Below are positions 23,335 to 41,628 of a DNA stretch of 41,696 nucleotides, in pieces; positions within the stretch are counted from its first letter, which is position 1; each line of letters starts with the position of its first letter. The notes beneath the pieces are model-generated. The model worked only from the letters and a program-made list of their open reading frames with translations. It made no database searches and was not told where the DNA came from. The translations under genes were made by a program, and so were the position numbers. The stretch spans positions 1 to 41,696 of the forward strand of contig PWMF01000222.1 in the NCBI GenBank assembly GCA_003559215.1. The letters are read 5' to 3'. Origin of the DNA: Natrialbaceae archaeon (GTDB taxonomy: Archaea > Halobacteriota > Halobacteria > Halobacteriales > Natrialbaceae).

Positions 23335-23548
23335 CGATCGCCCGGTCGTTCGTTCCGGGGTCGTGGTACGGTCGTCAAACTCTCGCCGCCTCGAGCGAGA
23401 CCGACTGCGGCTCTCACGTCCGGGAGTATCTGAACATCGTAAACCTAAATGACTCCACAACCAACCATCTAAAATCAAATGCCGACTAGCTCTTATCGGC
23501 TGAGAACGCTCCGCCCTCTGTACGGAGTGCGCGGCTCGAGTCGGTCGC

Positions 23549-24540
23549 ATGCGATACGACGATTCGGAACGCGCCCGGGAGCTCGCCCGGCGCGCCCGGA
23601 CGCTGATGGACGCGGTCGTCCTGCCACTCGAGCGCGAGCTGGCCGGGGGTGTGAGCGTCTCGGACGGGACCGTCGCCGAACTGCGCGCCGAAGCGCGCGA
23701 ACACGACGTGTACGCGCCACAGCTTCCGACCGAGTACGGCGGGATGGGCGTCGACTTCCGGGACGCGCTTCCGGTGTTCGGGGAGGCGGGCCGCAGCCCG
23801 CTGGGTCCCGTCGCGATGCGGGTCGACGCACCGGACGAGGGAAATATGCACCTTCTCGAGCTCGCGGGCAACGAACTCCAGAGAGAGTCCTATCTCGAAC
23901 CCCTGATCGCGGGGGAGCTCCGGTCGGGGTTCTCGATGACCGAACCGATGCAGGGCGCGGGATCTCTCACGCGGAGATCCGCTACGACGGCGTTCGCGTC
24001 CCCGAGGAGCACCTGCTCGGCGAACGCGACCGCGGGTTCGTCCACGCCCAAGAGCGCCTCGGTCCCGCCCGGCTCACCCACTGTATGCGCTACTCGGGGA
24101 TGGCCCGGCGCGCACTCGAGATCGCGAAGGTGTACCTGGACGCACGAGCGGGTTCGGCTCGAGATTGTCGGCCAAACAGTCGCTGCGCCACCGGATCGCC
24201 GACGCCGAGACGCGGCTCCACGTCGCTCGGACCGCGATCCGGGACGCCGCGGATCGGCGCGGGCGAACGGGCACGGGTTCCGGTGTCGATGTGTAAGGTG
24301 TTCGTCGCCTCGGTCGTCCAGGATGCGGTCGATCTCGCGGTACAGTGCTGTGGCGCCAACGGAATCGGCAGAGATCTCCCGCTGTCGGAGTTCTACGAGT
24401 CGGTCCGACAGTTCCGGATCGTCGACGGCGCCGACGAGGTCCACCGACGAGTGATCGCTCGCCACGCGCTCGAGGACCTCGAGGAAGCCGAACTCGAGCC
24501 CCTTTCCCGCTTCGGCGACCCGGTCGGGAGACGGGGGTGA
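23549..24540 (+). pseudogene. Broken acyl-CoA dehydrogenase (CaiA type), internal deletion plus two frameshifts
   Basis: The N-terminal part (from ATG 23549 to about 23956, LPTEYGGMGVDF and SGFSMTEPMQGAG) and the C-terminal part (from about 23959, GISHAEIRYDGVRVPEEHLL, then RIVDGADEVHRRVIARH) belong to one acyl-CoA dehydrogenase. Between them the FAD/substrate beta-barrel is missing, roughly 70-90 residues against the usual ~390-410. The join changes frame, then one base is lost near 24149, and another shift near 24258 restores the frame. The enzyme would oxidise acyl-CoAs with FAD; this copy cannot. The remnant sits between the SDR gene and tRNA-Arg and once may have worked with the SDR in beta-oxidation. 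Confidence 0.82.
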
Positions 24541-29504: not shown

Positions 29505-31343
29505 TCAGTAGCTGCGTTCCTTCGGCTCGTAGGTCTTCTCGCCCTCGAGGATGACGGGCCGGTAGAAGATGTTCGGCTCGCCGTCCTCCCAGGAGATCAG
29601 CGTGTGCTTGAGCCAGTTCTCGTCGTCGCGCTCCTGGTTTTCCTGGCGCCAGTGGGCACCCCGGAACTCGTTTCGCACGAGCGCGCCCAGCGCGATCGTC
29701 TCGGCGACGTCGATCAGGTTGCGCGTCTCGTAGGTCTGCTGGAGATCGGTGTTGAAGGTGCGAGAGGGGTCGTCGACGTAGACGTTCTGGTACTCCTCGC
29801 GACACTCCCGGATGACCCGCAGCGCCTTTCGGATCCCCTCGTCGGTGCGGAAGACGTTGACGTAGTCGGTCATCGCCTTCTGGAGCTTCGCCCGGATCTG
29901 GGCGTGCTGGACGCCGTCGTCCTTGTCCATCAGGTGATCGACGCGAGCGCGCTCGGCCTCGACGGCGCGCTCGAGGAGCCCGTCGACCTCCGCCGCGACG
30001 CCGCTCCCGTCGGCGGCGACGCCGTCGGCGGTGTCGAGCCCGGCCGAACCGGGCTGGACGGGCAGTTCGGTCTCGGTCTCGTCCTCGACGTCGGGGCCGT
30101 AGCCGGTCTTGATCTCGGCCTCGCCGAGGTCGTCGCCGGCGGCGTGGCGACCCGCGCGCTTGCCGAAGACGATCAGTTCGGGGAGCGCGTTCCCGCCCAG
30201 GCGGTTGCCGCCGTGGACGGAGACGCAGGCGGACTCGCCGGCCGCGTAGAGCCCGGAGATACAGGTCTGGCCGTTCTCGTCGACGTCGATGCCGCCCATC
30301 GCGTAGTGCTGGCCGGGTTTGACCGGCATCGGCTCGACGAGCCCGTCGACGCCCTCGAAGTCCTCCGCGAGGTGCAGAATGTTCTCGAGGCGGTCGAGGA
30401 TGCGCTCCTCGCCGAGGTGGCGCATGTCGAGGTGGACGTACTCGTCGTTGACGCCCCGACCCTCGTTGACCTCGGTGAGTTCGGCGCGGGCGACGACGTC
30501 GCGGGAGGCGAGCTCGCCGGAGTTGTTCGCGTACCCGTACTCGAACATGAATCGTTCGCCCTTCGCGTTGTAGAGGATCCCGCCCTCGCCCCGGACGCCC
30601 TCGCTGATGAGCACGCCCGTCGAGGGGAGCGACGTCGGGTGGAACTGGATGAACTCCATGTCCTCGAGCGGTGCGCCCGCCCGGTAGGCCATCGCGTGGC
30701 CGTCACCGGTACAGGAGACGGCGTTCGTGGTGTGGTCGAACGCCTGTCCCGGACCGCCGGTCGCGAGGATGACGCCGTTGTTGGCCTTGAACCCCTCGAC
30801 GTTGCCCGACTGGACGTCGTAGGCGACGACGCCGTGACACTCCCGGTCGTTCGGGTCGGCGGCGTCGTCGGTGACGAGGTTCATCACGTACCACTCGTCG
30901 TACACCTGAATGCCGCGTTTGACGACCTGTTCGTACATGACGTGCAGCAGGTGGTGGCCGGTCTCGGCGCCGGCGTAGGTCGTCCGCGGGAACGAGAGAC
31001 CGCCGAACGGCCGCTGGGAGACCCGACCGTCGTCTTCGCGCGAGAAGGGCATCCCCCAGTGCTCGAGTTGGATCGTCTCCTCCGGGGCGTCCTGGGCCAG
31101 CGTCTCGGCGGCCGGAGCGTCGGCCAGGTAGTCCGAGCCCTTCATCGTGTCGTAGGCGTGGAGCTCCCAGTCGTCGCCCTCGCGGAGGGCGGCGTTGATC
31201 CCACCCTCGGCCGCGCCGGTGTGGCTGCGGACCGGGTGGAGTTTCGAGACGATCGCCGTGTCGGCGCCCGCCTCGTGCGCTGCGATTGCGGCCCGGAGGC
31301 CGGCGCCGCCGGCGCCGACCACGATAACGTCGTGTTCGTACAT
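29505..31343 (-). CDS. sdhA: Succinate dehydrogenase flavoprotein subunit
   Basis: A 612-residue flavoprotein that oxidises succinate to fumarate. The FAD nucleotide loop GAGGAG is at 10-15, and SHTGAAEGGINAAL carries H41, the residue that binds FAD covalently in the family. The substrate region HPTSLPSTGVLI and the catalytic Arg/His helices further on, plus the second FAD element GNALPE, are intact. The C-terminal domain has the acidic insertion typical of halophiles (about 420-455). It is the last gene in sdhCDBA and begins two bases after sdhB ends, so it is cotranscribed. Confidence 0.97.
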   Translation of the reverse strand: MYEHDVIVVGAGGAGLRAAIAAHEAGADTAIVSKLHPVRSHTGAAEGGINAALREGDDWELHAYDTMKGSDYLADAPAAETLAQDAPEETIQLEHWGMPFSREDDGRVSQRPFGGLSFPRTTYAGAETGHHLLHVMYEQVVKRGIQVYDEWYVMNLVTDDAADPNDRECHGVVAYDVQSGNVEGFKANNGVILATGGPGQAFDHTTNAVSCTGDGHAMAYRAGAPLEDMEFIQFHPTSLPSTGVLISEGVRGEGGILYNAKGERFMFEYGYANNSGELASRDVVARAELTEVNEGRGVNDEYVHLDMRHLGEERILDRLENILHLAEDFEGVDGLVEPMPVKPGQHYAMGGIDVDENGQTCISGLYAAGESACVSVHGGNRLGGNALPELIVFGKRAGRHAAGDDLGEAEIKTGYGPDVEDETETELPVQPGSAGLDTADGVAADGSGVAAEVDGLLERAVEAERARVDHLMDKDDGVQHAQIRAKLQKAMTDYVNVFRTDEGIRKALRVIRECREEYQNVYVDDPSRTFNTDLQQTYETRNLIDVAETIALGALVRNEFRGAHWRQENQERDDENWLKHTLISWEDGEPNIFYRPVILEGEKTYEPKERSY

Positions 31344-31344
31344 G

Positions 31345-32229
31345 TTACCAGAACTTCAGGTTCTTCTTCACTGCCTCCCGTTTGAGCTCCTGAATGTGCT
31401 CGGTCAGGGGGATATCCTTCGGACACACCTCGGTACAGGAGAACTGGGTCTGGCAGCGCCAGACGCCGTGTTCCTGCTCGACGATGCGGAGTCGGTGCTC
31501 CTTGATCTCCTCGTCCTCGCGTTCGTCCATCGCGAACCGGTAGGCCTTGTTGATCGCCGCAGGGCCCAGATACTCGTTGTCGCCGGCCGCGATGTTACAC
31601 GAGGACATACACGCCGCACACCAGATACACCGCGTCGACATCTTGACCTTCTCGCGGTTCTCGCGGGACTGGCGCTGCTCCTCGAGTTCGCCGTCCGGGA
31701 GCTCCTCCTGCTGGAAGTAGGGCTCGACGGCGTGCATCTGGTCGTAGAAGTGGTCCATATCGACGACCAGATCCTTGACGACCTCCTGGTGGGGGAGGGG
31801 TTCGATTCGAACCGGCTGTTTGAGATCCGAGATCTGGGTCTTACAGCCCAGTTGCTGTCTTCCGTTGACGAAGAAGGCGTCGGAGCCACAGACGGCCTGC
31901 CGACAGGAGTGACGGAACGTAAGCGAGGAGTCGAACTCGTCGCGGGCGTACATCACCGCGTCGAGGACGGTCATCCCCTTCTCGAAGGGGACGTAGAAGT
32001 CGTCGAATCGGGGTTCCTGTTTGCCCTCGACCTCGGGGTCGTAGCGGAACACCTTGAGGTGGACCGTTTCGCCCTCGACGTCCGACTCGTCGACGGCCTC
32101 CTCCTGAGCGAGGCCCTGTTCTTTCTCCTTGAGTCGTTCCTGCTGTGGCGACTCCGTGCCCCGAATCTCGGGGTCTTCCGGTGCTTCCTGCGATTCGGGT
32201 TCTTGCGGTTGTTCTTGTTGCGTACTCAT
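31345..32229 (-). CDS. sdhB: Succinate dehydrogenase iron-sulfur subunit
   Basis: A 294-residue subunit passing electrons from FAD to quinone. It has a haloarchaeal acidic N-terminal extension of about 52 residues, then a [2Fe-2S] site (C109, C114, D117, C129; the third ligand is Asp, as in E. coli SdhB), a [4Fe-4S] site CIWCAACMSSC, and a [3Fe-4S] region SCTEVCPKDIP. The order and spacing are standard for the family. The gene begins one base after sdhD ends. It will sit on the cytoplasmic face, bound to SdhA. Confidence 0.97.
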   Translation of the reverse strand: MSTQQEQPQEPESQEAPEDPEIRGTESPQQERLKEKEQGLAQEEAVDESDVEGETVHLKVFRYDPEVEGKQEPRFDDFYVPFEKGMTVLDAVMYARDEFDSSLTFRHSCRQAVCGSDAFFVNGRQQLGCKTQISDLKQPVRIEPLPHQEVVKDLVVDMDHFYDQMHAVEPYFQQEELPDGELEEQRQSRENREKVKMSTRCIWCAACMSSCNIAAGDNEYLGPAAINKAYRFAMDEREDEEIKEHRLRIVEQEHGVWRCQTQFSCTEVCPKDIPLTEHIQELKREAVKKNLKFW

Positions 32230-32230
32230 G

Positions 32231-32596
32231 TTAGGTCCACCCCGCCATGGCGACTGCGACCCAGATACCCTGGGCGATGAGTGCGATTCCGGCGAGTGAC
32301 AACACGGCGAGCACGACCTTCTTTTGCGTGCCTTCCAGCCCCTGGTTGACCAGGGCGTTGTATACGCCGTTGACGCCGTGGAACGTCCCCGCGATCAGGA
32401 ACAACACCATCGTCAGGAAGTACCCGACGTTCTCCATTCGGGCCTGCGTCCCTGCAAATGTTACGTCCGCGGCGTGGTTGACGAAGTGTAGCTGAAAGAA
32501 GTGAAACGCCAGCACGACGATCAGAAACGCCGCGGTGATACGCTGGAGCAGCCATCCAGTGCCACCGCGGGTAAACGAGGAGTAGTGTTCCGCCAT
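32231..32596 (-). CDS. sdhD: Succinate dehydrogenase hydrophobic membrane anchor
   Basis: A 121-residue membrane anchor with three helices (about 14-40, 56-76 and 92-116). Helix 1 contains HFFQLHF and helix 2 is followed by HGVNGVYNAL, where His residues are candidates for haem or quinone contacts. It overlaps sdhC by one base (ATGA-type) and is followed by sdhB. The assignment of SdhD rather than SdhC rests on gene order and length. Confidence 0.9.
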   Translation of the reverse strand: MAEHYSSFTRGGTGWLLQRITAAFLIVVLAFHFFQLHFVNHAADVTFAGTQARMENVGYFLTMVLFLIAGTFHGVNGVYNALVNQGLEGTQKKVVLAVLSLAGIALIAQGIWVAVAMAGWT

Positions 32597-33024
32597 CAGA
32601 TCGCCACCCCGTCCATGAACGTCGGCACGCTCGCGATAGTGATGATACCGGTCAGCACCAGCGAGGCGTAGAAACTCTTATCTTGGGCCGAGAGGCCGAC
32701 GCCGAGGTCGACCATCAGCAGCCGAAGCCCGTTCAAGATGTGGAAGACGGCGACCGCCAGCAGTCCGACCTCGAGCACGCGGATAATGAACAGCGACTCG
32801 AGACCCTGGATCGTCGTCGTGTACACGTCCGTTTCCTGCTGGATCGCCGCCGGGTCCCCGGCCGCTGCACCGATGGCCGTACTCAGCACGGCGATGTGGG
32901 TAAACAGGTAGCCGATCAGCATCCACCCGGTGAACTTGTGGAAGATCCACGCCCACATTCCGGCCGAGAACTCCTTCCAGCGACCGAAGTCCTCGATGAG
33001 ACCGCGATTGTAAGACTGACTCAT
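32596..33024 (-). CDS. sdhC: Succinate dehydrogenase cytochrome b556 subunit
   Basis: A 142-residue membrane subunit with three helices. The signature [20 protein letters not shown] (about 27-46) and [16 protein letters not shown] (about 95-110) carry the His residues expected to bind haem b. The ATG at 33024 is the family-like start (MSQSYNRG); the longer frame to 33087 crosses a TATA TCTATACC (33053-33060) about 32 nt upstream. It is the first gene of the sdhCDBA operon, so this promoter should drive all four. Confidence 0.92.
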
Positions 33025-33052
33025 ACGCTCATGTGGACCGTTTGACCGTGAC

Positions 33053-33060
33053 GGTATAGA
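33053..33060 (-). promoter_or_regulatory. Promoter of sdhCDBA
   Basis: TCTATACC on the minus strand is about 32 nt upstream of the sdhC ATG at 33024, giving a leader of only a few bases. Confidence 0.5.
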
Positions 33061-33113
33061 AGTTGCCTTTATCGCGTCGCTTGCCACAGTCCGCGCCGAC
33101 AGCTTCCAGGCAG

Positions 33114-34211
33114 CTACATCCGGAGCTGCGACTGCGATTCGGTCCCGGTCCCCGTTCGTTCGTTTTCGAGCGCCGTCCGCGTGTCCGGCGAGAGGCCGAC
33201 CAGGTGACAGAGCGGGTTCCCCGGATAGACGACGGGGTTCTCGAGAACGCCGACGATCAACCCCGTAAACGGGGCCTCGACGGTGACGATGTCGTCCATC
33301 TCCTTGAACGGGTTCGTGATGGTACAGATCACGTCCCCTTCCTCGACGAGCGAGCCCCGCCCGTGTTTCATGTCGACGATCCCGCCGGCGTCGGCCCGAA
33401 GCCAGGTCTTCTCGTCGTCGCTGTCGATGACGGTTCGCCAGCCCGGCCAGTGGACGGCGGCGCCCGGATGGAGTCCGAACTCGGCGAACACGCTGGCGAC
33501 GCCGGTCAGCGCACGGTCGATCAGCCGCCGCTGGAAGCGATGGGCCTCGCCCATCTCGATGGTGACCGTCGGGATGCCCGCGTCGGTCGCCTCTCGGCGC
33601 AGGGTGCCGGAGGGTCCCTGACCCGCGATGATGACGTGGGAGCTGAACGCGCTCGCGACCCGAGCGGCGCTGGGATCGTCCATATTCGCCCGCGCGTGAA
33701 GCATGTTGGTCCGTCCCCGCGTCGAGGTGTGAAAATCGATCCCTAGATCACAGGGTTCGATGAAGTTCGTGAAGATCCGGTGAGCCATCCGCCTCGCGCT
33801 GGTCGATCCCTCGCGGCCGGGGAACGAGCGGTTGAGGTCTCGATCGTAGATCGGCAGGTACCGTTCCTGGGCCAGGAACCCGGGAACGTTCATGACGGGG
33901 AGACAGACCAGCGTCCCGTGAAGATCGGAGTGATCCCAGTCGTGGGCCACCTCGCGGACGACTTCGATCCCGTTGAGTTCGTCGCCGTGTGCGGCCGCCG
34001 AGAGGAACACCGTCGGCCCCGAGTGTTTCCCGTTGATGATCGTAACGGGAATCCGAACGGGGTCCCCGAGGTAGGTTTCGCTGATGCCGTACCGAATGTT
34101 CGCCGACTCGCCAGGATCGACCCGGCCCCCATCGTACGTGAACACGTCGTTGTCGATCGGCGGCGAGTCGGACGACTCGCTCGAGTCGTCGGCCGCTTCG
34201 TTACCGCTCAT
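33114..34211 (-). CDS. Succinylglutamate desuccinylase/aspartoacylase-family M14 hydrolase
   Basis: A 365-residue zinc hydrolase. The M14-like zinc site is HGDE (H75, E78) plus H161 in [12 protein letters not shown] supplies the substrate-binding Arg and IEMGE (219-222) the catalytic Glu region. The C-terminal 110 residues form a barrel-like domain ([14 protein letters not shown] resembles a biotinyl/lipoyl hammerhead). The enzyme family removes acyl or aminoacyl groups from amino acids or peptides. The ATG at 34211 is used because the upstream extension lacks family character and crosses the likely promoter. It is divergent from the GNAT gene and may belong with the ATP-grasp gene at 36936 (inference). 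Confidence 0.9.
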
Positions 34212-34332
34212 AGTTGCCCCTTGACCGGAGCCCTCCTGAATCTTTGTTTGCCGCCCCGGGACCGGCGGTGCGCTCGCGAGCCCTCGCCGGGGTCGACCGT
34301 CCGCCAAGGTTGCGTAAGGGAGTTGAAATTCA

Positions 34333-34353
34333 GGGCATAGATTTTGTATGCCC
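34333..34353. promoter_or_regulatory. Operator-like inverted repeat over the GNAT promoter
   Basis: GGGCATA (34333-34339) and TATGCCC (34347-34353) are perfect 7-bp arms separated by seven bases. The spacer and right arm contain the TATA-like TAGATTTTGT (34338-34347) centred about 28 nt before ATG 34372. A protein bound here would block TBP. A second short palindrome GTAC-G-GTAC lies at 34359-34367 over the start site. Confidence 0.6.
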
Positions 34354-34371
34354 GACTTGTACGGTACGGGC

Positions 34372-35124
34372 ATGGAGATACGCGAAGCGACCGACGCCGA
34401 CGCCGACACGATCCGTTCGATCGCCCACGATTCGCTCTCGTCAACCTACACGGACTTTCTCGGTGCGGAAACGATCGACAGCGCCATCGACCAGTGGTAC
34501 GGCGAGGAGTTCGCCGACGACATCGTCGACGATCACTCGCTGATCCTGGTCGTCGAACGCGACGACGAGGTCATCGGCTTCTCTCACAGCGAACTGGTCG
34601 GTCAGCAGTACAGCAACGGCCAGCTGCTGTGGCTCCACATCGACCCCGACGCCCGCGGCGACGGGATCGGTGTCCGGCTGCTCGTTCGCACCCGCGAGAA
34701 GCTCCTCGATACCGGGGCCGACCAGGTCCAGTGTTTCGTCCTCGAGGACAACGAGGGCGGCAACACGTTCTACACGGACCACGGCTTCGAACAGGCCGAC
34801 CAGCGCGAGGTCGAGATCGGCGAGGAGACGTTCACCGAGAACATCTACGTCGAAAGCGAGATCCAGAGCGGCGACGACTGGACCGCTATCGACGAACTCG
34901 AGGTCGACGGGCAGACGGTGTACGTCAGCTACGGCGACGCGGACCGGGGTTCGAAGGCACCGTTCTACGGCGCCTACGAGAGCGAGGACCAGGCCGACCG
35001 CTACGGCTGGCTCTGTGGGAACTGCGATTCGATCGACAACGCGATGGACACGATGGGCCGCATCGAGTGTAACTCCTGTGGCAACCGCCGTAAGCCGACC
35101 CGCTGGGACTCCTCGTACCTGTAG
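34372..35124 (+). CDS. GNAT N-acetyltransferase with C-terminal zinc ribbon (DUF5816)
   Basis: A 250-residue fusion. Residues 1-150 are a GNAT fold: EIREATDADADTIRSIA at the start, LLWLHIDPDARGDGIG with the acetyl-CoA pyrophosphate loop near 100-106, and NTFYTDHGFE late. Residues ~170-250 hold a halophilic domain ending in a zinc ribbon, CGNC and CNSC, of the DUF5816 type. It transfers an acetyl group from acetyl-CoA to an unknown amine, possibly a protein N-terminus or side chain. The ATG at 34372 is preferred over ATG 34348 because the TATA is 28 nt upstream of it. Confidence 0.87.
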   Translation: MEIREATDADADTIRSIAHDSLSSTYTDFLGAETIDSAIDQWYGEEFADDIVDDHSLILVVERDDEVIGFSHSELVGQQYSNGQLLWLHIDPDARGDGIGVRLLVRTREKLLDTGADQVQCFVLEDNEGGNTFYTDHGFEQADQREVEIGEETFTENIYVESEIQSGDDWTAIDELEVDGQTVYVSYGDADRGSKAPFYGAYESEDQADRYGWLCGNCDSIDNAMDTMGRIECNSCGNRRKPTRWDSSYL

Positions 35125-35125
35125 C

Positions 35126-35143
35126 GAACCGACGCGGTTCTTT
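35126..35143 (+). terminator. Hairpin terminator after the GNAT gene
   Basis: GAACCG (35126-35131) pairs with CGGTTC (35135-35140) around an ACG loop, followed by TTT. It starts one base after the GNAT stop codon. Confidence 0.5.
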
Positions 35144-35394
35144 CGGACCGTCGATTCGGCTCGGTTTCGATTCGTCTGGACGCCGCGAGACAGCGACGCG
35201 CTCGAGTAGGCCGTCCCTACCCGCCGAAGCGGTGGTCTCGGACCGTCGGCGTCGATTTCGTTCTCGCGGTTGTCTCCGTCTTCCAAGAGTTGCCCCCGCA
35301 TTACAATCCCTTCCTCGCTGGACGTATCCGACGAGTCGCGGTTTCGCTCCTGACGCCGTAGCACGGCGTTCGGCGATCGCGACCGTCACGACGC

Positions 35395-36864
35395 ATGAAC
35401 AGGCAGGACCACATCGTTCGCGGATTCAAGGCGACGCTAGTCGCGCGGGCGATATACATGATCTCGAGCGCGCTGTTGATGCTCGTGCTGGCGCGCTTTC
35501 TCCTCGATCCCGACGGCTACGGCGCGCTGTACTGGGCGATCGGCGTGCTCGCAGTGATCCAGCTGGTCGCCGATCTCGGCCTCGGTAAGTCGGCCGCACG
35601 ATACTTCTCGGAGTACAGCGAGCGCGATCCGGGACAGATCCCGCACCTGATCCGGACGACGCTGGCGCTGAAGCTCGGACTGCTCGCGGTCGTCACAACC
35701 GGCCTGCTGGTCGGCCACGAGTGGCTCGCCGCCGCGCTCGGCGACCCCGGTGCCGCCCCCTTCCTCGCCGCGGGAGCGCTGTATATCGTCGCCTTCTCCT
35801 TTAGTACCACCTCCCAGATCGCCTTACAGGGGTTCAATCGCTTGGGGTACAGCGCGGCGATCCAGGCGATCAGCGGCGCCGCCCGGCTGCTCTTCGCCGT
35901 CGCGTTCGTCGTGCTTGGAATGGGTGCACTCGGCGCGCTGTTTGGCTACATCGTCGGCTACGCGATCTCGGCCGCGGTCGGACTGACCATCCTGTACCTC
36001 GAGTACTACACCCGGTACGAGCCCGCCGAGGAGTACGAGCCCGGGCTCGCCCGTCGTCTCGCGGAGTACAGCGTTCCGCTGACCGCGACCCGAAGCGCGA
36101 ACGTGATCGACAAGCGCATCGACGTCGTCCTTGTCGGGATCTTCCTGACGCCCGCCGCGGTCGCGTTCTACCAGCTGAGCAAACAGATCGCCGATTTCCT
36201 TCTCGCACCGGCCGAATCGCTCGGATTCACGATTTCGCCGAACTTCGGCGAACAGAAGGCGACCGGCCAGCTCGAGAGCGCCCGCCGGATCTACGAGACG
36301 TCGCTGACGAACGTCCTCCTGTTGTACGTTCCCGCCACGGTCGGACTCGTCATCGTCGCCGACCCGTTCGTGACGATGGTGTTCGGCGCCGACTACGCGG
36401 GCGCGGTTCCGGTCCTTCAGATCCTCGCGGGCTTCGTTATCTTGCAGGCGATCACGAACCTGACTAGCGACAGCTTGGATTACCTCGGTCGGGCCCGCTC
36501 GCGGGCGATCGCGAAGGGGGCGACGTCGGTCGCGAACTTCGGACTCAACCTCGTCCTCATCCCGACCTTCGGGGTCGTCGGCGCCGCCGCGGCGACCGTC
36601 GCGACCCACACCGTCTACGTCTCGGTTAACCTCTACATCGTCCACAGCGAGCTTTCGCTTCGGCTCGAGACCCTCGCACGGACCGTCGGTCGGATCTGTG
36701 CGATTACGGGCGTGATGGCCGTCGCCGTATTGCTCGTGACGCCGCTGATCTCGAACCTCATCATGCTGTTCGTCGCGATCGGACTCGGCGTAGCAACCTG
36801 GTGGGTGCTCGCCGTGACGACCGGGATGATCGACGTTCAGGAAGTTCGTTCAGTCATCACGTAG
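35395..36864 (+). CDS. Polysaccharide/lipid-linked oligosaccharide flippase (MATE/MOP superfamily)
   Basis: A 489-residue protein with about 14 membrane helices of the MOP flippase superfamily. An N-terminal basic head (MNRQDHIVRGFKATLVARAI) leads to LVLARFLLDPDGYGALYWAI, and LAEYSVPLTATRSANVIDKR with IDVVLVGIFLTPAAVAFYQL is the mid-protein signature. These flip lipid-linked sugars for S-layer glycoprotein N-glycosylation or polysaccharide export; no glycosyltransferase is next to it. No clear TATA precedes the ATG, and the 270-bp gap upstream holds only the GNAT terminator. It ends 71 nt before the ATP-grasp gene. Confidence 0.88.
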   Translation: MNRQDHIVRGFKATLVARAIYMISSALLMLVLARFLLDPDGYGALYWAIGVLAVIQLVADLGLGKSAARYFSEYSERDPGQIPHLIRTTLALKLGLLAVVTTGLLVGHEWLAAALGDPGAAPFLAAGALYIVAFSFSTTSQIALQGFNRLGYSAAIQAISGAARLLFAVAFVVLGMGALGALFGYIVGYAISAAVGLTILYLEYYTRYEPAEEYEPGLARRLAEYSVPLTATRSANVIDKRIDVVLVGIFLTPAAVAFYQLSKQIADFLLAPAESLGFTISPNFGEQKATGQLESARRIYETSLTNVLLLYVPATVGLVIVADPFVTMVFGADYAGAVPVLQILAGFVILQAITNLTSDSLDYLGRARSRAIAKGATSVANFGLNLVLIPTFGVVGAAAATVATHTVYVSVNLYIVHSELSLRLETLARTVGRICAITGVMAVAVLLVTPLISNLIMLFVAIGLGVATWWVLAVTTGMIDVQEVRSVIT

Positions 36865-36906
36865 CGTGACGGGCGTCGTTCGGCGGCCTGCCCTCGCTCA
36901 TGAACG

Positions 36907-36916
36907 CTTATCAATA
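36907..36916 (+). promoter_or_regulatory. TATA box of the ATP-grasp gene
   Basis: CTTATCAATA is centred 24 nt before ATG 36936, supporting a leaderless transcript and this start in place of the ATG at 36900. Confidence 0.55.
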
Positions 36917-36935
36917 CCGTTCGTCTCTATACTGT

Positions 36936-38279
36936 ATGGCTGTTTCCGATTCCGTCACTGTCGGCGTGCTGAGCCTTCACACCAGCAAGGAGACGAAAGC
37001 GATACTCAACGCGACCGAGGAGTTAGGTCACGACACCGAGTGGCTCCGCACGGAGAACACGTCGGTTAGCGTCGTCGACGGGAGCGCCACGCTCGAGCCG
37101 TCGGTCGACGTGATCGCGAACCGGATGCTGCTATCGAACACCGAACAGCCCTGTGAGGAGCTCGGACTGGCGAACACCCTCTCGGGACTGGTTCCGATGC
37201 TTAACGGCCCCCAGTCGGTGCTGACGGCGATTCACAAGATGTCGACCGGCACGGCGCTTGCGGCCAACGATGTTCGGGTACCGGACGTAACCCTCGCGTT
37301 GGGTAACGCGAAGCTCAACGAGGCCCGCTCGCGCTACGGCGAGGAGGCCGTCTACAAGACGGCGATCGGTACCCACGGCGGCGGGACCTGGAAGGTCGGC
37401 CGGGACGATCCGATCAACGCGAAGGTCGGCAACCGGTACGCTTTCTTGCAGGAACTCATCGACCGCGAGGACGCGCGCCACCGGGACGTCCGGGTCTACG
37501 TCGTCGACGGGAAGATCATCGGTGCGATGTACCGCTACGCCCCGGACAACGACTGGCGTACGAACGTCGCCCTCGGCGGCGCCGTCGAGAACGCGACCGA
37601 CGACCTCCCCGAGGAGGCCCGCGACATGGCCAAACGGGCCAGCGACGCTATCGGGCTCGACTACGCTGGCGTCGACCTCGTCGAGGGTGAGGAAGGCTGG
37701 TTCGTCCTCGAGGTCAACCCCACGGCCGGCTTCAAGGGACTGTACGAGGCGACCCAGGTCAGTCCCGCACCGTACATCGCAAAGCTCGCGATCGAACGCG
37801 CCGGCGGCGAGGTCGACGACGACCGGGTCAGAGAGCTCTCGGCAGTGCTCGACGACTCGCAGCCCTCGGCCAAGCCGCCCGAGGCGTCGACGTTCGGCGA
37901 GGAGTCCGCGGTGATCGGCTACACCGAGGAGGTCGTTCTCTCGGGAACCAGCGGCTCGAAGACCGTCCTCGCGAAGTCCGACACCGGTGCGACCCGAACC
38001 AGTATCGACACCTCGCTCGCGGCCGACATCGGCGCCGGACCCATCAAATCGATCACGCGGGTCAAATCGGGCAGCAGCAAGACCTCCAAGAGCCGACCCG
38101 TCGTCGACGTCGTCGTCGGCGTCGGCGGCAACCAACACACCGTCACCGCGAGCGTCGAAGACCGCAGCCACATGGACTACCCCGTCCTGCTCGGCCGGGA
38201 CATCCTCGAGAACTACCAGGTCGACGTCAGCCGGCGGATCGATCGCGACGCGCAGGACAGGCCCGAGGAAGAGGAGTAA
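36936..38279 (+). CDS. RimK-type ATP-grasp ligase fused to a retropepsin-like protease domain
   Basis: A 447-residue fusion. Residues ~1-290 are an ATP-grasp ligase of the RimK/LysX type: VYKTAIGTHGGGTWKVG is the glycine-rich nucleotide loop, then VRVYVVDGKIIGAMYRYAP, and the metal-binding end FVLEVNPTAGFKGL. RimK enzymes join glutamate or another amino acid to a peptide or protein amine/carboxylate. Residues ~325-445 are a retropepsin/RimB-like domain (often called ATP-dependent zinc protease) with DTGATRTSID (D349) and YPVLLGRDIL. Bacterial RimK and RimB are separate neighbours; here they are one protein. It lies near an M14 deacylase and a GNAT, a set of tools for making and removing an amide tag. 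Substrate unknown. Confidence 0.9.
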   Translation: MAVSDSVTVGVLSLHTSKETKAILNATEELGHDTEWLRTENTSVSVVDGSATLEPSVDVIANRMLLSNTEQPCEELGLANTLSGLVPMLNGPQSVLTAIHKMSTGTALAANDVRVPDVTLALGNAKLNEARSRYGEEAVYKTAIGTHGGGTWKVGRDDPINAKVGNRYAFLQELIDREDARHRDVRVYVVDGKIIGAMYRYAPDNDWRTNVALGGAVENATDDLPEEARDMAKRASDAIGLDYAGVDLVEGEEGWFVLEVNPTAGFKGLYEATQVSPAPYIAKLAIERAGGEVDDDRVRELSAVLDDSQPSAKPPEASTFGEESAVIGYTEEVVLSGTSGSKTVLAKSDTGATRTSIDTSLAADIGAGPIKSITRVKSGSSKTSKSRPVVDVVVGVGGNQHTVTASVEDRSHMDYPVLLGRDILENYQVDVSRRIDRDAQDRPEEEE

Positions 38280-40955: not shown

Positions 40956-41549
40956 TCAGTCGGCCTCGTACTCCGCCCAGATGTACCGCGTCGCGACGCT
41001 GCGGTGCGGGCGCCACGTCTCGGCGATCTCGCGCATCTCCGCGCGGGTGAGCTCCTCACCGTCGTCGGCGTACAGGTTCTCGATCCCGCGACGAACCGCC
41101 AGATCGCCAAGCGGGAGGATATCGGGTCGCTCGAGGACGAACAGGAGGTACATCCGTGCGGTCCAGTCGCCGATTCCCTTGATCTCGGTGAGCGCGTCGA
41201 TCACCTCCTCGTTGGTGTGGTCGGCCAACCCGGATCGAGTGTAGTCGTTTGCCCGGAAGGCCTCGGCGGCGTTGCGGACGTACTCGATCTTGCTACGGGA
41301 GAGCCCGGCCTCGTACAGCGCGTCCTCGTCGGCGGCCAGGATGGTCTCGGGCGTTACCTCGCCGTCGAGCACGTCGAACACGCGCTCGCGGATCGCCGCC
41401 GCGCTGGCGGTCGACACCTGCTGGTTGATAATCGAGATGCAGAGTCGCTCGTACTCGGTCCAGTCCGGTTCCTCGTAGGGGTCGTGTCGCTCGACGAGCT
41501 CCGCCATCACGGGATCCCGGCGGAGCACGGGGTGTGCCTCTTCTATCAT
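40956..41549 (-). CDS. DNA-3-methyladenine glycosylase-like HhH-GPD protein
   Basis: A 197-residue base-excision repair enzyme of the HhH-GPD superfamily. Residues ~113-133 form the helix-hairpin-helix with IKGIGDWTARM, and the catalytic Asp is D149 in LPLGDLAVRRG; the helix before carries ISIINQQVST, typical of the AlkA/3mA glycosylase branch. It has no iron-sulfur Cys cluster, unlike EndoIII/MutY. The ATG at 41549 (MIEEAH) is family-like; a GTG at 41573 adds eight residues. Which alkylated base it removes is not deducible. Confidence 0.88.
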   Translation of the reverse strand: MIEEAHPVLRRDPVMAELVERHDPYEEPDWTEYERLCISIINQQVSTASAAAIRERVFDVLDGEVTPETILAADEDALYEAGLSRSKIEYVRNAAEAFRANDYTRSGLADHTNEEVIDALTEIKGIGDWTARMYLLFVLERPDILPLGDLAVRRGIENLYADDGEELTRAEMREIAETWRPHRSVATRYIWAEYEAD

Positions 41550-41628
41550 GCGCAGTGGCTGGATACGAAACACGGTGCCGGGAGCGCATATGCGTCTCGC
41601 TTGCGCGAGGGCGGGCGCAACGACGGCG

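Follow-up and report, generated by a model that had tools for sequence, protein, structure and literature searches.

Introduction

Among the closest described relatives of the system analysed here is the RimK/RimB pair of Pseudomonas (rimABK), in which a RimK-family ligase likewise works alongside the retropepsin-like protease RimB; the known RimK acceptor, RpsF (ribosomal protein S6), ends in Glu-Glu in E. coli. One report describes Pseudomonas RimB as stripping glutamate from polyglutamylated RpsF and as stimulating RimK; with the P. fluorescens enzymes, detection of free poly-α-glutamate required the presence of both RimK and RimB (PMC11957791). Here we describe a haloarchaeal relative, consisting of a single protein that fuses a RimK-family ligase to a RimB-type retropepsin domain (36936..38279, forward strand) and an M14 zinc hydrolase of AstE/AspA type (33114..34211, reverse strand), both encoded on a 41,696-nucleotide stretch (contig PWMF01000222.1; hereafter the window) from a haloarchaeon that resembles Natronococcus, in which genus the top four named matches to the fusion protein all lie (92–96% identity). 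We propose that the fusion and the M14 hydrolase constitute one biochemical unit that would make and break α-linked glutamate chains. As an add-and-remove glutamate system the pair is well supported as a prediction, because the M14 gene recurs near the fusion (73 of 80 loci), is lost together with it and adjoins unfused RimB and RimK genes in other lineages.

Compared with Pseudomonas rimABK, the haloarchaeal form is a single chain with the ligase first and probably derives from another branch of the RimK family; it has an M14 partner, carries a glutamate end on the enzyme itself and is found without an S6 above cut-off in the three genomes searched. Three bacterial loci with apparently fused RimB–RimK (L211, L213 and L220) have no M14 gene within 4 kb, and the two whose ends were read lack Glu-Glu. 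An unfused RimB–RimK–M14 trio shares all three activities and the M14 subfamily signature, but its genes are co-directional and its archaeal RimK is of S6-ligase type (479.5 bits). The cyanophycin cycle (CphA1, cyanophycinase and CphZ) likewise combines a protease with an M14 peptide hydrolase, although both polymer and protease differ; cyanophycin is made by an ATP-grasp enzyme and is not known to be attached to its synthetase. The RimBK hybrid of Desulfotalea psychrophila, whose protease activity has been demonstrated, also holds RimB and RimK in one protein, but with RimB at the N-terminus rather than, as in haloarchaea, at the C-terminus (PMC11957791). Finally, the Rlo proteins of Pseudomonas aeruginosa are retropepsin-like polyglutamate cutters with an ATP-grasp partner (RloC) and a link to osmotic stress but, unlike the haloarchaeal fusion, they are secreted, unfused and accompanied by an inactive transglutaminase (PMC12239564).

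A literature search, with subscription papers largely outside its scope, returned no haloarchaeal RimK, RimK–RimB fusion or RimK–M14 link among the matches listed. The RimB–RimK–M14 trio may, reportedly, already be described in a comparative survey of amidoligases.

A ligase and a protease in one chain

The fusion protein comprises an ATP-grasp ligase domain (residues ~10–288), a linker, a retropepsin-like domain (~330–436) and an acidic tail ending EEEE; a start at 36936 is preferred over one at 36900, being consistent with the orthologues. Its ligase domain matches the RimK model PF08443 (79.2 bits, residues 101–275), and the protein exceeds the cut-off of the TIGR00768 model for RimK-family α-L-glutamate ligases (151.6 against 143.4 bits) but not that of the LysX model TIGR02144 (112.9 against 275.6). 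The C-terminal region is a RimB-type retropepsin by its match to the Zn_protease/RimB family PF05618 (42 bits, cut-off 27; residues 370–435), although the score on the RimB equivalog NF052261 is only 15.9 bits against a cut-off of 200. Asp_protease_2 (PF13650) is also matched (26.4 bits, cut-off 24.3; residues 339–422), across the catalytic motif D349-T350-G351, the codons of which, calculated from the gene start, occupy 37980..37988 on the forward strand. The ligase (residues 10–282) precedes the RimB-type domain, so that the arrangement is not the RimB-first one. Aligned with RimB, the retropepsin domain has four basic positions in common with it.

When the window protein was aligned with 41 of its 80 named orthologues, the DTG motif proved invariant in all 42 sequences, as did the ligase residues K141, D247, E259 and N261, which we take to be the ATP and metal residues. 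Across 292 genomes sampled from the class Halobacteria (77 genera), with presence called at E < 1e-100 for the fusion and at E values up to 1e-50 for the M14 hydrolase, the fusion was found in 268, three of which (G124, G131 and G202) match only at 1e-115 to 1e-126 and possibly hold a divergent copy; in the remaining 24 the best match is no better than 1.6e-27. The best matches among those listed, a part of the 268, span from residue 7 or earlier to residue 438 or later, with both domains in one frame; with 268 of the 292 genomes matching at E < 1e-100, the fusion is no product of chance. The genome from which the window comes encodes a second RimK–RimB fusion (L188; G000 contig C95, 4955–6280), 54% identical to the first, that has lost the retropepsin motif and retained a Glu-Glu end. 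A pattern search of viral contigs, which reaches close relatives only, found no relative of the fusion, and carriage of the fusion by viruses was set aside on that result.

A conserved glutamate end

The fusion has a conserved glutamate C-terminus, a new observation on which the initial annotation of this DNA did not remark. The four C-terminal Glu codons of the window gene (38265..38276, forward strand) would encode the RimK acceptor proposed below. Beyond the final conserved GRD the tail is anywhere between 13 and 42 residues long; nevertheless, 77 of the 80 orthologues end in Glu and 59 in Glu-Glu, and amongst the 69 distinct tails the corresponding counts are 66 and 49. A background of 977 other proteins from the same loci, which are mechanical open reading frame calls partly selected for acidity, contains 172 that end in Glu (17.6%) and 13 that end in Glu-Glu (1.3%), and on the Glu-Glu counts a chance acidic tail was rejected.

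Of eighteen further copies, divergent or plasmid-borne, one (L231) is broken; among the other 17, which are intact, 16 finish in Glu-Glu, on tails that are mostly short and differ from one another. Four of these 16, including L188, lack the D[TS]GA motif, and since Glu-Glu has been retained after loss of the protease motif, it probably has a role beyond the protease. By comparison, there is no Glu-Glu end on three bacterial RimKs or on two fused bacterial RimBKs. A search for S6 itself found none above the PF01250 cut-off in six archaeal genomes (three haloarchaea of one genus and three with the unfused trio); amongst 14 controls there were 11 matches, 10 of them over cut-off, from ten bacteria and M. 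acetivorans, and H. volcanii gave no match.

The M14 hydrolase

The M14 protein scores 165.5 bits on the AstE/AspA family PF24827 (cut-off 25), and the residues H75xxE78, N127-R128, H161 and E219 are invariant in all 39 aligned sequences; presumably these serve in zinc binding, carboxylate binding and catalysis, as in the family at large. Neither of two specific assignments could be upheld, the protein reaching 24.9 bits on the succinylglutamate desuccinylase (AstE) model TIGR03242, the cut-off of which is 305.65, and 96.4 bits against 402.7 on the DoeB model TIGR02994. Further down the list of structural matches its model resembles CphZ, the cyanophycin dipeptide hydrolase with β-Asp-Arg specificity (E = 1.6e-16), a similarity of fold only; M14 enzymes of the CphZ type are reported to hydrolyse dipeptides released from cyanophycin (PMC10206079). 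In three genomes (G238, G287 and G288) the M14 match contains one internal TGA, where the alignment possibly extends beyond the true stop.

Shared presence and loss across Halobacteria

The M14 hydrolase is present in 271 of the 292 genomes. Both proteins occur in 268 and neither in 21; three genomes (G110, G168 and G184) have the M14 hydrolase only and none has the fusion only. All 21 genomes without M14 (20 identified directly and the last, G286, by elimination) fall among the 24 without the fusion. That M14 is seen alone and the fusion never would fit a writing enzyme that cells tolerate only alongside its eraser.

We used a quick tree of SdhA sequences to count independent events; it holds 71 chosen rows rather than all 292 genomes, 19 of them fusion-less, eight of the 79 rows initially chosen having been dropped for want of a usable SdhA (two of these being loss genomes), and its named rows were originally found via the fusion itself. 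On this tree the presence of the fusion changes 12 times on the best topology and 10 times on supported branches, and several of its losses are independent. In the 10 supported differences M14 follows the fusion in 7–8, stays the same in 2–3 and moves in the opposite direction in none, and in the eight independent M14 differences the fusion follows in 7–8 (median sign test p 0.008).

Traces of loss are visible in individual genomes. G052 keeps a weak fusion relic in place (24 residues, E 0.003) and G114 an M14 relic only, whilst in the three genomes with M14 alone fusion relics lie next to an M14 match of approximately full length. In five others (G029, G064, G213, G045 and G075) M14 and fusion are distant from each other and both are retained. 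Among additional copies of the fusion, M14 adjoins three of nine extra haloarchaeal copies (L169, L171 and L173) and an M14 of the same type adjoins two of nine plasmid copies (L217 and L218). Universal stress protein genes lie near four plasmid fusion copies (L227, L229, L231 and L232).

At the locus itself, 33 of the 73 loci that have both genes show M14 and fusion in head-to-head order, with 110–246 bp between the aligned starts; in 39 the gap is 1.0–4.8 kb, with GNAT or flippase genes between, and one locus is arranged otherwise. M14 lies on the strand opposite to the fusion, and the genes accordingly do not make up one operon, a point that the initial annotation had already made.

An unfused trio in other lineages

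Of 392 genomes from the phylum, 138 contain PF05618, and outside Halobacteria there are 21 strong matches (>100 bits); among Halobacteria, Haloferax volcanii has the domain. In the 20 of these that were examined as loci, a stand-alone RimB of ~160 residues is followed by RimK in 20/20 and accompanied by M14 in 19/20, and in the archaeal trios the genes overlap, or nearly so, in the loci read. We have taken the archaea that carry this trio to be methanogens, since MptN, the tetrahydromethanopterin ligase, scores above cut-off in three of their genomes. That MptN gene is separate from the trio, and the one archaeal trio RimK that was scanned is not itself MptN, scoring 168.8 on that model (cut-off 350) against 479.5 on the S6-ligase model; five archaeal trio RimKs group with bacterial RimK on the tree.

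Bacterial plasmids give a more varied picture. Of 29 plasmid RimB records 14 were examined, and in these RimB, RimK and M14 occur together in seven; an apparently fused RimB–RimK without M14 occurs in three (the loci named above), RimK and RimB without M14 in two, RimB with a partial RimK and no M14 in one, and a RimB-like gene alone in one. Approached from the other side, eight of the best 12 non-haloarchaeal plasmid matches to M14 were examined and all eight adjoin RimK, one of them without RimB. The trio of unfused, co-directional genes is seen both in marine bacteria and in the presumed methanogens, and the co-losses and the trio loci together show joint inheritance of the RimB, RimK and M14 activities. 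The M14 proteins of the trio and of haloarchaea (10 among the rows listed) share the signatures D-L-N-R-[SC]-F-P-G and E-x-G-E-[AG]-x-R-F, which are absent from AstE of E. coli and from a further two haloarchaeal M14s; the tree leaves unsettled whether the sharers form a single clade. That this three-part chemistry was assembled twice, from different RimK-family ligases, is only a possibility.

Genes for MscS-type channels lie within 4 kb of a RimB–RimK–M14 trio in four of the 14 bacterial loci (L210, L216, L224 and L225), with magnesium transporter genes accompanying them in three; a search with one channel query found no MscS-type match in the six of the 14 loci that are unannotated. These mechanosensitive channel genes hint at an osmotic role, a fit and no proof.

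A proposed glutamate cycle

We suggest that the RimK domain, with ATP, would add L-glutamate onto a C-terminal glutamate, and that its main acceptor is likely to be the fusion's own conserved glutamate end, giving a self-primed chain, comparable to the priming of glycogen by glycogenin. Internal cleavage of this chain would fall to the fused retropepsin domain, presumably acting as a dimer, and the M14 hydrolase, anchoring a free carboxylate, would then degrade the released peptides or trim the stub back to glutamate. Joining RimB to RimK would make the coupling between them permanent, and a terminal glutamate carried by the enzyme's own chain would provide an acceptor in cis. The purpose is perhaps a compact glutamate store or an osmotic buffer. 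A link to the poly-γ-glutamine cell wall of Natronococcus was considered and set aside, as the fusion is class-wide. Taken together, a linked ligase and cutter with a co-inherited hydrolase suggests a cycle of glutamate chains in archaea that has so far gone unstudied. We put the probability of a make, cut and finish cycle for poly-α-glutamate, primed on the fusion itself, at about one in two; the more ambitious picture, of a self-primed poly-α-glutamate synthase-protease that with its dedicated M14 peptidase maintains a switchable glutamate polymer in most haloarchaea, is offered more tentatively.

A number of observations weigh against this proposal. The fusion scores 59.0 bits on the S6-glutamate-ligase model NF007764, well below its cut-off of 331, and on the tree its ligase domain clusters with LysX and MptN (95/83), apart from bacterial RimK, although the AU test does not reject a placement with RimK (p 0.158) and the branches concerned are long. 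AlphaFold gave a usable ligase domain for the fusion but a pLDDT of ~25 in the retropepsin domain, and the best fold matches of the M14 model are deacylases of DoeB type. Because the two genes adjoin in 33/73 loci, some of the co-losses may be single deletions. Six of the nine extra haloarchaeal fusion copies have no M14 in the stretch examined, although their genomes do hold one, and a Halomontanus plasmid carries an M14 relative (L286) whose annotated neighbours include no fusion. As to the glutamate end, one divergent copy (L177) has no tail, acidic ends are frequent in haloarchaea (the 17.6% of neighbouring called proteins noted above), and the catalase-peroxidase KatG ends in Glu in 29/31 cases and in Glu-Glu in 0/31, so that conservation of a single terminal Glu counts for little by itself. 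In the archaeal trios read, neither of the unfused proteins RimK and RimB has a Glu-Glu end, and their acceptor must therefore be something else. Finally, the S6 test spans one haloarchaeal genus, and one of its archaeal controls, M. acetivorans, gave a match.

The acceptor is also where the first alternative departs from our proposal. The pair could reversibly glutamylate the C-terminus of another haloarchaeal protein, the fusion's own end being a regulatory mimic or a site of secondary self-modification. We regard this as unlikely, if worth keeping in view: bacterial RimK and RimB do act on RpsF in trans (PMC11957791), and the unfused archaeal trios show that the family can use acceptors other than a Glu-Glu end of its own. 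However, three haloarchaeal genomes, all from one genus, yielded no copy of the bacterial target S6 above cut-off, and H. volcanii gave no match (other targets were not searched for); a mimic, too, need not occupy the very last position on tails that differ so much in length.

A second alternative takes its cue from the placement of the ligase. On the tree the ligase domain joins LysX (95/87), and its model finds its best fold match in a LysX/ArgX–LysW complex, with RimK a close second; from the titles of such structures, LysX-type ligases also act on a carrier protein. In those systems the C-terminal Glu of the carrier is the site of modification, and M14 enzymes of AstE/AspA type liberate amino acids from amides. 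The tail might accordingly be a built-in amino-group carrier like LysW, onto which the ligase tethers an amino acid for biosynthesis and from which M14 releases the product, a reading that would also accommodate the four copies that keep Glu-Glu without the protease motif. We consider it improbable, since it leaves the retropepsin domain without a job despite a motif invariant in 42/42 sequences, no such pathway is apparent by eye among the recurring neighbours, and the window's genome has a separate LysX above cut-off.

Finally, M14 might serve succinate metabolism as a desuccinylase or deacylase beside succinate dehydrogenase, its link to the fusion being positional. AstE is a desuccinylase, and the M14 gene lies 26 bp upstream of sdhC in the same direction (33087–33114; aligned spacing 27–247 bp in most loci), beside a set of succinate dehydrogenase genes (29505..33087, reverse strand) with which it may share a transcript. 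This is very improbable given the AstE score of 24.9 bits (cut-off 305.65) and the eight examined plasmid M14 genes that all adjoin RimK. Moreover, SdhC is retained in all 24 fusion-loss genomes, 21 of them without M14, and the sdh genes therefore fall outside the unit.

Neighbouring genes

Open reading frame and domain scans of the window confirmed, at the same positions, the four genes singled out by the initial annotation: an intact M14 hydrolase, a GNAT–zinc-ribbon protein, a flippase and the RimK–DTG fusion. In order, the succinate dehydrogenase genes are followed by M14, GNAT, flippase, fusion, catalase-peroxidase and an AlkA-like glycosylase. The GNAT acetyltransferase (34348..35124, forward strand; 34372, the start given by the initial annotation, is an internal ATG) matches Acetyltransf_1 (42.8 bits) and carries a zinc-ribbon-like DUF5816 C-terminus (PF19133, 124.7 bits) with four cysteines in two CxxC pairs. 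The polysaccharide-type flippase (35395..36864, forward strand) matches PF13440 and PF01943 (~80 bits).

Counting genes within 10 kb of the fusion in the 80 named loci, several of which are on short contigs, we found M14 in 73, the AlkA-like gene in 69, SdhC in 68, GNAT in 40, flippase in 37 and KatG in 32. GNAT and flippase are confined at this locus to Natrialbaceae and Haloarchaeobius, one distant GNAT match apart (L083, 38%); one of the flippase matches is itself distant (L067, 27% identity). In G052, where M14 and fusion are both gone, the intervening GNAT and flippase are still in place. On this limited distribution and this survival both were rejected as members: M14 and fusion form a real unit, and GNAT and flippase are outside it. 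Of the partners expected to recur, M14 has been borne out and GNAT has not, and of a system to add, remove and acetylate, the adding and removing stand with fusion and M14 whilst the acetylating is not supported. That all four genes act together is scarcely credible, even though 36 of the 80 loci have all three of the other genes (M14, GNAT and flippase) no more than 10 kb from the fusion (one with only the 27% identical flippase), given the restricted occurrence of GNAT and flippase and their outliving of the pair in G052.

The AlkA-like HhH-GPD gene (40956–41573), recurrent as noted, lies on either strand relative to the fusion. An acyl-CoA dehydrogenase-like gene (23479–24540; family judged by eye) is present partly as two overlapping frames, and a frameshift or an assembly error is suspected.

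Implications

Among the papers found, RimK/RimB polyglutamylation has so far been described only in bacteria, on S6. Bacteria provide the precedent for this kind of chemistry; what is new is an archaeal form that is fused, occurs class-wide and has an acceptor-like end built in, and with it the vague annotation 'RimK/LysX family protein' becomes a directly testable prediction. If the proposal is correct, archaea would have their own reversible glutamate-chain chemistry, class-wide and with a built-in acceptor. Salt-adapted cells are rich in potassium and glutamate, and the tying up and releasing of glutamate could matter for osmotic control.

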